Below are positions 29,933 to 33,611 of a DNA stretch of 56,452 nt, piece by piece (the stretch's first letter is position 1; every line of letters begins with the position of its first letter). This stretch comes from Natrialba chahannaoensis JCM 10990 (GTDB lineage Archaea > Halobacteriota > Halobacteria > Halobacteriales > Natrialbaceae). Made by a program: the position numbers and the translations under genes. The notes beneath the pieces were generated by a model that saw only the letters and a list, made by a program, of their open reading frames with translations, did not search any database and was not told the DNA's origin. The stretch covers positions 24,422 through 80,873 of the forward strand of contig NZ_AOIN01000078.1 in NCBI RefSeq assembly GCF_000337135.1, in the 5' to 3' direction.

Positions 29933-30892
29933 TTACTCCTCTTTCTTCGGCATCGTGGAAAGTCGAGCCGGCGACCGCATGTCGGCTCGCTTCGAAGGGG
30001 AAGGTGCTAGTGTCGAGTAGCGAACGACGCCGCGGGAGGTGTTCTCGCCGTCTGAACCGGTCCCGAGGTCGGACTCGAGATCAGCACCGAGACCCTCCTC
30101 GAGCAGTCCATCATCGTGATCGTCGGTATCGTCCGCATCGCCATCTGTCTCGTCTCCCGCTCCCTCATCGTTCGCGTCCGCTTCGCTCTCGCCACCTACC
30201 GAACTCACCTTCTCTCGAAGCCCATCTACATCCTCACTGAACGACGACACCCGGTCGCCCAACGCGTCCACCAGTTCGTCCTCGGCGAACTCGAGTACGT
30301 CGTCGCCGGTGTCGCTCTCGTCGGCACGATCATCACTGCTCCCATCGGTGTCTCCGTGATCGTCACCGTTCTCGCTCTCACTTTCACTTTCACTTTCACT
30401 CTCACTCTCACCCGTACTCTCACTCTCGCTTTCTCCCTCCCCTTCGCCCGCTTCACCCTCGTCGCTATTCGCCGTCGTACCGTCGTCATCACCACCCGAC
30501 TCACCATCCGCTGTCACCTGGTGTTCACGAATCGCTGCCTGCAGTCCGCCGACGGCGTCTTCGAGTGCCTCCTCGTCTGTGCTCTCGCCCACCCTCGCCA
30601 GCCGCAGGAGGCGCTCGAGATCCTCGACGTGTTCCGGGTCGCCCTGTGCGATTGCCGCCGGAATCGTCTCCGGTTCGGAGCCGTCCGGCAACGTCCCGAG
30701 GCCGACCGCCTCGAGAAGGTCGCGTGGCTCGGCCGACTCGAGAAGGTCGCTGGCAGTTGCCGAGAGGGTGGCCATCGTCGACCCGCTCGGCGTATCGGTG
30801 TCTGTGGCCAGTGCGCCGGCCTCGGCATCGGCCGTCTCCAGCAGGTCGTTCACCTGTTCTTGGAGTTCCTGGGAGTCGTCGGTGTCACTCAT
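29933..30892 (-). CDS. Acidic modular protein with basic C-terminal tail
   Basis: I do not recognise a function. The 319 residues consist of a helical N-terminal region (about 1-125) with repeated LLE/LLR heptad-like leucines and a long Glu/Ser/Asp low-complexity region. A short helical part follows (FAEDELVDALGDRVSSFSED), then more acidic sequence, and finally a basic tail of about 30 residues (STLAPSPSKRADMRSPARLS...). The acidic-then-basic layout resembles other haloarchaeal proteins that I cannot name. It is the last gene of a four-gene same-strand cluster, 96 bases after the preceding gene. Confidence 0.75.
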   Translation of the reverse strand: MSDTDDSQELQEQVNDLLETADAEAGALATDTDTPSGSTMATLSATASDLLESAEPRDLLEAVGLGTLPDGSEPETIPAAIAQGDPEHVEDLERLLRLARVGESTDEEALEDAVGGLQAAIREHQVTADGESGGDDDGTTANSDEGEAGEGEGESESESTGESESESESESESENGDDHGDTDGSSDDRADESDTGDDVLEFAEDELVDALGDRVSSFSEDVDGLREKVSSVGGESEADANDEGAGDETDGDADDTDDHDDGLLEEGLGADLESDLGTGSDGENTSRGVVRYSTLAPSPSKRADMRSPARLSTMPKKEE

Positions 30893-30988
30893 GGGCGCTC
30901 TCGTTCGTCGAACGGTCGCCAGTGCCGTGAACGTTGGCCGGGCCAGTTCCGGGTTCGGGGGTGAATCTGGGGAGATCCGTTGGGAGGG

Positions 30989-31870
30989 TTACTCGCTCTC
31001 GTTACCGGTGTCGTCTTCGGTCGCATCGTCATCTTCGGCGTCTTCACTGTCCGCACCATCCCCATCGCCCTCATCGGCTTCGTCACCGTTTCCATCTGCT
31101 CCGTCGTCTGCAGTACCGCCGTCGTCATCGGTGACCGTGTCGACGATTTCGTCCGTCATCTCCTCGCGACTGAGGTTCGCCTTGACGCCGACCTCCTTGG
31201 CAACCGACTGGAGGTCCTCGTAGGACATCACGCCGAGGAAGTCCACGAGCGTTTCTCGGCGTAGGTTTTCGAGGTCCTCCGCGGACTGCTCGAGGCCTGA
31301 TTCGTCTGTTTCCTGTTGGTCTTCGGCTTCATCCGCTTCTTCGTCTTCAGCCCCACCGTCGTCGGTATCAGCCTCGTCCGCCTCAGCATCTTCCCCACCC
31401 GTCGCCTCATCGACGACCCCCTCGAGACTCGTCCCGTCTGCGACATTCTGGGCAACCGACTCGGCGGACTCACGCGCATCGCTGCCCTCGAGTGCCGTCG
31501 CAACTCCGCGTCGAATTGCCGCTGCGAGTTCGGAGAGAAGTTGTGTTGGGATGCGACCGTCCTCATCGGCTTCGGCTGTCGCTTCAGTTTCAGTTTCAGT
31601 TTCATCGGCTTCCGCTTCGGCTTCAGTATCCTCCTCACCCCCTTCCCCTCGCTCCTGGACTGCACTCGAGAGGACCTCGTGGATCTCGCCACCAACTGAC
31701 GCGCCGACGTTCCGGCCGACTTGCTCGCCGAACTGCCGACCGACTGCAGCACCGATTTCGCCGGCGTCGATCCCATCCTCGAGTGAGCCGCCGTCGATGA
31801 GGTCGGTGACCTCGAGTTGTTCTGAGACTTCGTCGGCGACGAGTTGTTTTAGGCTGGAGTCCTCACTCAT
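30989..31870 (-). CDS. Glycine-zipper acidic protein with SAP/Rho-N-like domain
   Basis: This is a 293-residue protein. Residues 40-60 hold a perfect glycine zipper with Gly at 40, 44, 48, 52, 56 and 60 (IGAAVGRQFGEQVGRNVGA...). An acidic linker and a helical part follow (LLSELAAAIRRGVATALEG). A second acidic linker leads to a SAP or Rho-N-like fold at about 202-246 (RRETLVDFLGVMSYEDLQSV), and the tail is acidic. Glycine zippers pack helices in membranes or oligomers. SAP/Rho-N folds often bind nucleic acid. There is no signal peptide. It is a paralog, in the zipper region, of the gene just upstream. Confidence 0.78.
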   Translation of the reverse strand: MSEDSSLKQLVADEVSEQLEVTDLIDGGSLEDGIDAGEIGAAVGRQFGEQVGRNVGASVGGEIHEVLSSAVQERGEGGEEDTEAEAEADETETETEATAEADEDGRIPTQLLSELAAAIRRGVATALEGSDARESAESVAQNVADGTSLEGVVDEATGGEDAEADEADTDDGGAEDEEADEAEDQQETDESGLEQSAEDLENLRRETLVDFLGVMSYEDLQSVAKEVGVKANLSREEMTDEIVDTVTDDDGGTADDGADGNGDEADEGDGDGADSEDAEDDDATEDDTGNESE

Positions 31871-31923
31871 AGCTAGTCCCTCGGTGCGGTCGTGCCCGAC
31901 GGAGGTGGTCGTGGCAGTGGGTG

Positions 31924-32526
31924 TTAGTCATCCTCGGAGTCGTCGTTCTCGGTGTCCTCGTCTTCGTCTTCCTCTCCGTCTCCGTCTTCGTCCGCTCCCG
32001 CAGATTCGTCATCACCTTCGTCGTCCTCGCTCTCACCGTCGCCACTCTCCTCGTCTTCACCGGCTGAATCGTCACTATCGTCTCCATTTTCCTCGCCGTC
32101 ATCTTCGTCGCTCTCCGCACCGTTCTCACTATCTTGGTCTTCGTCTTCCGCTTCTGCTTCGTCACCCTCGTCTTCCCCCGCATCCGCCTCTGGCTCCTCA
32201 TCTTCCTCTGACTCCTCGTCACCCCGACTGAGCACCTCCTCCAGAGCCATCTCACCAATCGTCCGTCCGAGACTCGCCCCGATCTTTCGACCCACGATCG
32301 CTCCGATCAACCCACCGAGAGACTCGCCGAGTGGCTTCTCCTCGTCGAGTTTATCCTCCCACTGGGTCCCCTCCAGTAGTTCCTGTAAATTGATGTTCTC
32401 AGCGATCTTTTCGTAGTCGATTCGATCCACAACCGATCCGCTCTCGTCGGTCGTATCGGTACTCGAGTTCGTGTCTATCTCTGTCTCCGAATTCGAGTCT
32501 GAATCTGAACGTGAATCGTCGCTCAT
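31924..32526 (-). CDS. Glycine-zipper acidic protein
   Basis: The 200-residue protein has a Ser/Asp-rich start and then a helical part (IDYEKIAENINLQELLEGTQ). A perfect zipper with Gly at 67, 71, 75, 79, 83, 87 and 91 follows (GESLGGLIGAIVGRKIGASL...), and the last 100 residues are almost entirely Asp, Glu, Ser and Gly. Seven glycines at exact four-residue spacing imply a tightly packed helical pair or oligomer. Its start overlaps the upstream gene's stop by four bases (ATGA). Function unknown. Confidence 0.78.
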   Translation of the reverse strand: MSDDSRSDSDSNSETEIDTNSSTDTTDESGSVVDRIDYEKIAENINLQELLEGTQWEDKLDEEKPLGESLGGLIGAIVGRKIGASLGRTIGEMALEEVLSRGDEESEEDEEPEADAGEDEGDEAEAEDEDQDSENGAESDEDDGEENGDDSDDSAGEDEESGDGESEDDEGDDESAGADEDGDGEEDEDEDTENDDSEDD

Positions 32527-33611
32527 GATTGGGCCTCCGGCTGTGATTCTGCCTGACTATCCGAACCGTTCTGTTCACCCGATCCGCTGTTGCCGCCGCT
32601 TGACTCTACCTGCTCGATGAGTTGCTTGAGTACCTCGCGGACGACGATCGCGACGAGTTCCTCGACTGGGAGGCTTGGGACGAGGCTGCGAGCCTTCTGC
32701 TTCACCGTTCCGCCCGCCGAGGAGAGCGAGTCTGAGACTGAGCTGGCGGCCGAGGAGATGGGGCCGGGAGTGTCGTCGGCCGTTTCGTCCTCTCCGGTTT
32801 CAGTTTCGGCTTCGTCTACGTCTACGTCTTCGCCTTCACCTTCGCCTTCCTCGTCCGTCTCCGTGTCTTCCTCCTCGTCAGTTTCGTCGTCACCTTCGCT
32901 TTCGTCCGCAGCTTCCGCGTCTTCCGCTTCATCCTGTCCGCCTCTGCGAAGCCGTCCAATCACCGACTTCGGCTTCTGTACCAGCTTGCTCGGGAGTGAT
33001 TTGAGCCAACTCACCGGCTTCCCGAGTGCGGATTTCAGCGCCTCGGCTGGTTTCGAAATCGCAGAGCGGAGCATCGACACGGGTTTCGTCAGCATCGATT
33101 TCGCACGTCCCGCTAGCGATTTAGCTTTCTCCAGCAGTGCACTGGGGCCGTCGAGTAAGCCGGTGACGGTCGACAGCAAGTTCCCGAGTAGGTTGTTCTG
33201 CCCCGGTCGGGCCGAGACGTCGAGGGTGACCGGGTTCAGGTTGACCTCGAGTCCCAGGAGGTCGAGAAACAGGCCGTCGAGATCGAGGTGGAGGACGCCG
33301 CTCGCGTCGTCGTCCTGGTAGACGTCTTCGGCGTCCTCGACGTGGTCGCTCGTGACGGTGTCGTCGTCACTTTCTTGGTCGTCCGGTTCGGCTGCCTCGT
33401 CAGATTCGGGTTCCTGGTCTTCGTCGTCTGCAGCGTCCGCCGACTCAGCGTCGCCATCCGTGCGTTCTGTCTCATCTGTGCCTTCGTCTCCGTCTCCATC
33501 TTCGTCTTCGTCTTCGGTTTCGCCTTCATCAGTTTCTGCACCGCCACCACCTGTTTCAGACTCGCTTTCGCCGTTCTCCTCAGCCCTGTCGGTCTCGCCG
33601 CCGTCGGTCAT
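32523..33611 (-). CDS. Acidic protein with conserved LDLLGLEV-type motif and basic KP repeats
   Basis: The 362-residue protein has an acidic stretch to about 105. A motif then follows at 106-154 (LHLDLDGLFLDLLGLEVNL, RPGQNNLLGNLLSTVTGLLD) that I recognise as recurrent in haloarchaea and some bacteria but without known function. Residues 160-224 are basic and amphipathic, with repeated KP turns about every 12 residues (LTKPVSML, ISKPAEAL, LGKPVSWL). A second acidic block and a short helix follow. I chose the ATG at 33611 because upstream in-frame codons to 33794 read as non-acidic sequence; 33716 is an alternative. First gene of the cluster. Confidence 0.72.
   Translation of the reverse strand: MTDGGETDRAEENGESESETGGGGAETDEGETEDEDEDGDGDEGTDETERTDGDAESADAADDEDQEPESDEAAEPDDQESDDDTVTSDHVEDAEDVYQDDDASGVLHLDLDGLFLDLLGLEVNLNPVTLDVSARPGQNNLLGNLLSTVTGLLDGPSALLEKAKSLAGRAKSMLTKPVSMLRSAISKPAEALKSALGKPVSWLKSLPSKLVQKPKSVIGRLRRGGQDEAEDAEAADESEGDDETDEEEDTETDEEGEGEGEDVDVDEAETETGEDETADDTPGPISSAASSVSDSLSSAGGTVKQKARSLVPSLPVEELVAIVVREVLKQLIEQVESSGGNSGSGEQNGSDSQAESQPEAQS

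Follow-up and report, generated by a model that had tools for sequence, protein, structure and literature searches.

A four-gene module of acidic glycine-zipper proteins very probably associated with haloarchaeal gas vesicles

The window analyzed here, a stretch of 56,452 nucleotides from Natrialba chahannaoensis JCM 10990 (contig NZ_AOIN01000078.1, positions 24,422 to 80,873), encodes on its minus strand, in the order P4-P3-P2-P1, four acidic proteins that we label P1-P4 and that with high probability constitute a gas-vesicle-associated module. The LDLLGLEV domain of P4 was found exclusively in haloarchaeal genomes that possess gas-vesicle (gvp) genes, and never together with repeat-bearing GvpC, the usual outer coat protein of haloarchaeal gas vesicles, which reinforces them, shapes them, and makes contact with both GvpI and GvpH (PMC9501494). 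We propose, at about even chances, that P1-P4 form an accessory gas-vesicle module doing the job of GvpC in vesicles that lack it.

Features of the locus (coordinates in the window)
32523..33716, minus strand: P4, an open reading frame (ORF) of 397 aa from ATG 33716, or up to 423 aa from GTG 33794, with the LDLLGLEV domain and a basic KP segment
33129..33311, minus strand: conserved core of P4, 61 aa (LHLDLDGLFLDLLGLEVNLNPVTLDVSARPG..NNLLGNLLSxVxGLLDG), with 16 invariant columns in an alignment of 18 diverse sequences
32940..33128, minus strand: basic amphipathic segment of P4 with KP every ~11 residues, read from the sequence
31924..32526, minus strand: P3, a glycine-zipper protein with a very acidic tail (ORF, 200 aa)
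32254..32328, minus strand: glycine zipper of P3, seven Gly over residues 67-91, register conserved
30989..31870, minus strand: P2, a glycine-zipper protein with an acidic linker and a predicted C-terminal SAP/Rho-N-like domain (ORF, 293 aa; AlphaFold2 model)
31691..31753, minus strand: glycine zipper of P2, six Gly over residues 40-60, within one predicted helix, 36-77 (register count and AlphaFold2 model)
31124..31282, minus strand: predicted SAP/Rho-N-like three-helix domain of P2, residues 197-249; nearest folds are SAP and Rho N-terminal domains
29933..30892, minus strand: P1, a GvpI paralogue by profile-profile comparison with GvpI (ORF, 319 aa)
29942..30034, minus strand: basic C-terminal tail of P1 with GvpI-type repeated ST(M/L/V)P motifs (RYSTLAPSPSKRADMRSPARLSTMPKK); the same tail occurs in GvpI of the source genome and of Halobacterium salinarum

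Association with gas-vesicle genes

We scored the P4 LDLLGLEV domain and GvpA-family genes in a class-wide sample of 391 haloarchaeal genomes. Before correction, 130 genomes had P4 and 162 had GvpA-family genes, the former group lying wholly within the latter, including 42 of 42 outside the Natrialbaceae. One P4 match (genome G268, locus L187) proved to be a secreted protein of the twin-arginine translocation (TAT) type with a related core and was dropped from the counts. The corrected table holds 129 genomes with both P4 and gvp, none with P4 only, 33 with gvp only, and 229 with neither (Fisher p ~1e-72, a value in which kinship among the genomes overstates independence). The phi coefficient for P4 and gvp was 0.83, versus 0.26 for polyhydroxyalkanoate (PHA) synthase, a similarly patchy control gene. 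The GvpA/J/M shell family (PF00741) is the genomic partner of P4 in every case. P4 has no sequence match to GvpA, and its low-confidence core model contains a weak beta-hairpin.

The association extends to gene position: at least 18 genomes, spread over several families, have the module inside or adjacent to their gvp cluster. Specifically, P4-P3 lies between gvpH and gvpI at L049, L174, L175, L179, L184, and L192, the module follows gvpM at L075, and it stands beside gvpO at L048/L076, L171, L172, L176, L185, and L191. The full P4-P3-P2-P1 operon adjoins gvpO at L173, L177, L178, and L190, and at L188 the module is also close to gvp. Named examples of such linkage are Halocatena, Halococcus thailandensis, and Halalkalicoccus paucihalophilus. 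In most Natrialbaceae the module has moved away from gvp, to another contig or replicon; the source genome has its gvp cluster on a different contig from the module, and Natronorubrum bangense has gvp genes on a plasmid and the module on the chromosome. No P4 match was found in the plasmid records. The module is duplicated or triplicated in Haladaptatus salinisoli and H. halobius, with some copies on plasmids (L234, L243; L235, L239, L241), and at L234, L254, and L255 the order is P2-P4-P3, adjoining a gvpI-like gene.

Mutual exclusion with GvpC

The gvp clusters of Natrialbaceae comprise A-N-O and F-G-H-I-J-K-L-M, without gvpC, D, or E, in agreement with published work by which Natrialba magadii and relatives lack these three genes (PMC4390858, PMC3403918). 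Across the sample, repeat-bearing GvpC was encoded by 14 of the 33 gvp genomes lacking P4 and by none of the 129 that have it (p = 1.5e-11). A fifteenth GvpC case is G012 (gvp, without P4), in which a divergent GvpC is encoded between gvpA and gvpN. The profile for the Halo_GVPC repeats (PF05465) had no match in P1-P4, and across the 129 module genomes it matched nothing except for one weak single repeat in G256; this match and weak ones in G162 and G185 were rejected as GvpC, each being a lone repeat and that of G185 lying far from the gvp cluster.

The module shares with GvpC that it is encoded only alongside gvp genes, genomes having either but never both, and P2 likewise has a helical segment, an acidic linker, and a small C-terminal domain. 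Unlike GvpC, the module has glycine zippers rather than 32-residue repeats, consists of three or four separate proteins, and is usually unlinked from gvpA. The end domains of GvpC are themselves interchangeable, being zinc-finger-like in most cases, SAP/Rho-N-like in G012, and helix-hairpin-helix-like in G362 (L064 6684-7934; L285 458-2083).

Homology of P1 to GvpI

None of the four proteins belonged to a Pfam or NCBIfam family above cut-off. However, profile-profile comparison by hhalign placed P1 with the haloarchaea-specific accessory protein GvpI of gvp clusters (probability 98.8, E 4.6e-17), the similarity extending over the length and including the basic ST(M)P tail, and a hidden Markov model built from P1 proteins alone recovered the GvpI of several gvp clusters at 3e-16 to 4e-11. 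Direct BLAST of P1 against the GvpI of the source genome was not significant (E 0.077), the homology being visible by profiles only. On these profile comparisons, P1 is a GvpI paralogue. It differs from GvpI in that its tail is shorter, its middle is acidic, and its gene is an additional copy in an operon of its own; the true gvpI is retained in the gvp cluster.

This paralogy also fits an early assembly or chaperone role, the chief rival to a coat role, under which P1-P4 would join GvpF-M, GvpH and GvpI above all, in the complex that first nucleates or extends vesicles, and would control vesicle length or number without being part of the finished coat. The position of P4-P3 between gvpH and gvpI in several lineages fits that role, as do the very long vesicles that follow GvpI loss in Halobacterium and the existence of a GvpH/GvpI heterodimer (PMC9501494, PMC4390858). 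Yet a purely early role does not predict mutual exclusion with GvpC, and gvpH and gvpI are retained in most module genomes and hence are not replaced by the module. We consider this alternative unlikely, while treating it as a serious contender to the proposal that P1-P4 substitute for GvpC.

Conservation and parallel loss of the module

A P4-core probe was present in 37 of 61 relatives, and most of their loci retained the order P4-P3-P2-P1 between differing flanking genes. Among named haloarchaeal genomes, searched with a single motif-based pattern, 48 of 64 loci had this order. Since gene order is mostly kept while the flanks vary, the four-gene cluster is a unit of its own and not a side effect of its neighbors.

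Co-loss was checked in one genus of the family, at the site where relatives carry the module, in three genomes without gvp. P4-P1 were cleanly absent between conserved flanks in G079 and G324, and only fragments of P4 and P2 were left in G129. A fourth genome, G218, still has gvp, but its P4 is truncated to 114 aa and its gvpN is missing the middle, with P3, P2, and P1 intact (L159 7388-8683; L268 8805-11276); it is a gas-vesicle system caught in decay. That unlinked gvp and module loci decay together points to one function. It also bears on the possibility that the module is a brake which holds vesicle formation off, or limits it to special conditions, and so causes its carriers to be called vesicle-free. 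Module carriers such as Natrialba magadii and Natrinema pellirubrum, which have 11 gvp genes sufficient for vesicles and are reported as vesicle-negative (PMC4390858), would suit a brake. Its retention after gvp loss was not seen, however, the two being lost in parallel; moreover, a brake alone fails to account for the absence of the module from every gvpC-containing genome, and no regulator-like domain is present except for the P2 end. We therefore regard a brake as distinctly improbable.

These patterns bear out the view, taken in the initial annotation of the locus, that the four proteins are subunits of one assembly, a view that was staked there on co-conservation across species: the genes are co-conserved, kept in order, and lost together. 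The kind of assembly imagined, a condensate, a storage body, or a membrane-associated shell, has fared less well. A stand-alone body of this sort, unrelated to gas vesicles, would be in keeping with the very acidic chains, the short helical oligomerization motifs, and the basic segment of P4, but it conflicts with the perfect nesting of P4 genomes within gvp genomes, the gvp linkage, and the GvpI homology, and as a general reading it is refuted, so that we give it next to no credence. In place of a free condensate there is the gvp association, and a storage body is contradicted by 32 module genomes that lack PHA synthase, the six relatives in the source genus all being among them. The shell came near, in that the assembly indicated is a protein gas vesicle; membrane association does not agree with charged zipper helices and proteins that have neither a signal peptide nor a membrane segment. 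A PHA granule as cargo or site was also rejected, with the 32 module genomes without PhaC (TIGR01836) facing 125 PhaC genomes without the module. The source genome itself has a PHA synthase (G000:C56:174234-175256), which is absent in all six of its genus relatives.

Composition and glycine zippers of the four proteins

The genes are closely packed, with a 4-base overlap of P4 and P3 and remaining intergenic gaps of 53 and 96 bases, and their products rank among the most acidic of the window, as first described: net charge per 100 residues is -39.5 for P3, -29.0 for P2, -25.1 for P1, and -19.9 for P4, relative to a window gene median of -9. The LDLLGLEV motif and basic KP segment reported for P4 and the basic tail reported for P1 are also present. 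P4 is acidic overall and basic in its middle only, and the KP segment is more weakly conserved outside the Natrialbaceae. The start of P4, placed at 33611 by the initial annotation, is probably too far downstream; the ATG at 33716 is likelier because the L(L/M)xDGGE motif common to orthologues begins before 33611.

Glycine at exactly every fourth residue, another feature noted at the outset, is exact in both proteins. P3 has Gly at 67, 71, 75, 79, 83, 87, and 91, a run matched by 0 of 100,000 shuffles of its residues, and P2 has Gly at 40, 44, 48, 52, 56, and 60, matched by 46 of 100,000; such runs did not exceed three in any other window gene. At least four Gly were in register in all 100 distinct P3 and all 44 distinct P2 segments, most of which had six or seven, and across 42 P2 proteins Gly 48, 52, and 56 were invariant and 44 and 60 nearly so. 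P3 aligned with the P2 N-terminus through the zipper part (hhalign E 4.2e-28), and by this alignment the two are paralogues. The AlphaFold2 model of P2 renders the zipper as a single helix of ~42 residues.

Transmembrane glycine-zipper families (PF13488, PF05433) reached 12-17 bits, under their cut-offs of 24-25. The GxxxG register is common to these membrane proteins and P2/P3; in contrast to theirs, the P2/P3 helix is predicted to be cytoplasmic and highly charged, with Arg, Glu, and Lys interspersed among the glycines, rather than transmembrane or outer-membrane. Related zipper-type proteins were additionally encoded near gvpO in two gvp genomes without P4 or GvpC (L158 7868-8587, L167 5756-6436), that of L167 being clearly glycine-rich in register, and thus zipper proteins can occur without P4.

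Predicted structures of the P2 C-terminus and the P4 core

The P2 C-terminus was modeled by AlphaFold2 with a predicted local distance difference test score (pLDDT) above 90 across most of residues 200-249. The top solved folds for this three-helix model were SAP and Rho N-terminal domains, at modest Z scores of 5.2-6.8. A Rho_N profile run against 42 P2 proteins gave a best E of 0.0025, with matches in 3 of the 42, and one score of 12.5 bits lay below the 24.9-bit cut-off. The structural prediction supports the SAP/Rho-N-like fold that the initial annotation had suggested, in a domain that, relative to known SAP and Rho_N domains, is acidic and falls under the Pfam cut-offs.

Such a fold raises the alternative that the module positions or tethers vesicles, with the P2 domain binding nucleoid or plasmid DNA while the zipper proteins gather vesicles for placement and partitioning. 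A ParA-family gene adjoins gvpO in Halobacterium plasmids, which would accord with this. Nevertheless, the P2 domain is acidic, its similarity to SAP and Rho folds shows no function and is modest, and the small end domain of GvpC varies too, without known DNA binding. We judge a positioning role improbable relative to the GvpC-like role proposed for P1-P4.

For the P4 core, a GvpA-like fold was considered from the strand pattern and is not claimed, the AlphaFold2 model having a pLDDT of 66 and Foldseek returning no match in the PDB. Matches of the P4 profile to PDB sequences consisted only of designed helical bundles and other low-complexity helices and were discarded. A core of related sequence, LDLxxLGLxV...GNLLGNLL, occurs in the TAT-signal protein at L187 (5763-6401), which places the P4 core in a broader family with exported members. 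The second, weak match to P4 seen in each of G049, G239, G266, G273, G275, G365, and G372 may be of the L187 kind.

A proposed coat role in GvpC-less vesicles

Our proposal of a GvpC-like role draws on sequence-based evidence, namely co-conservation, gvp association, GvpI paralogy, GvpC exclusion, the conserved zipper, and the SAP-like fold, from which we infer the steps of a mechanism. P3 and the N-terminus of P2 would each fold into a long helix, and the glycine zippers would let these helices pack against one another, face on face, as homo- or hetero-oligomers that cover the outer surface of the GvpA shell instead of GvpC. The P4 core could anchor this zipper layer or the growing tip, and P1, as a GvpI-type adaptor, may link the layer to the GvpH/L assembly complex. 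Outermost, the extremely acidic tails would build a hydrated brush by which vesicles are made stronger and held apart at high salt, while the SAP/Rho-N-like end of P2 might stand in for the small C-terminal domain of GvpC.

Several observations weigh against a coat role. P2-P4 do not resemble the GvpC repeats in sequence, and confidence in the P4 core model is low. The strict form of replacement, with the module in every GvpC-less cluster, is false, as GvpC and P4 are both missing from ~18 gvp genomes, and the module is consequently not the sole route to GvpC independence. The end domain of the G012 GvpC resembles the P2 C-terminus (hhalign E 1.7e-4, probability 49%), a match that is suggestive only. 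Finally, several module carriers are reported to be without gas vesicles (PMC4390858).

Implications for vesicle-negative gvp clusters

Published gvp gene lists for Natrialba-type species omit the P1-P4 module (PMC9501494, PMC4390858, PMC3403918), and in the open-licence literature we found neither a description of it nor a paper combining gas vesicles with glycine zippers. The module is previously undescribed and usually lies apart from the gvp cluster. About one in three of the 391 genomes carries it, and the parts list of the gas-vesicle system changes with it. Gas vesicles attract study both as organelles of buoyancy and as reporters for ultrasound, and their strength is tuned mainly by way of GvpC; the module offers an alternative coat or assembly set to test.

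According to a 2015 review, Natrialba-type species have genes sufficient for vesicles yet are vesicle-negative, for a reason unknown (PMC4390858). This puzzle of 'silent' gvp clusters becomes testable through the module, a specific candidate explanation of the vesicle-negative label given to many species that have 11 gvp genes and no gvpC. A broader and more tentative reading, toward which we lean less than away, is that most gvp-bearing haloarchaea build a second gas-vesicle type, or a small GvpA-based shell unseen by microscopy, in which the coat is an acidic glycine-zipper mesh anchored by the LDLLGLEV protein and not GvpC. If true, the gvp clusters of Natrialba, Natrinema, and relatives that are taken to be silent and vesicle-negative would represent whole, functional systems, with the missing parts elsewhere in the genome and sometimes on another replicon.

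Neighboring genes

In the source genus, the module is flanked by a cobyrinate synthase and a universal stress gene. Downstream of it in the window (22498-24474, 27166-29154) are two genes resembling acetyl-CoA synthetase, separated by a PAS/HTH regulator, an arrangement found in the source genus and in several other Natrialbaceae.

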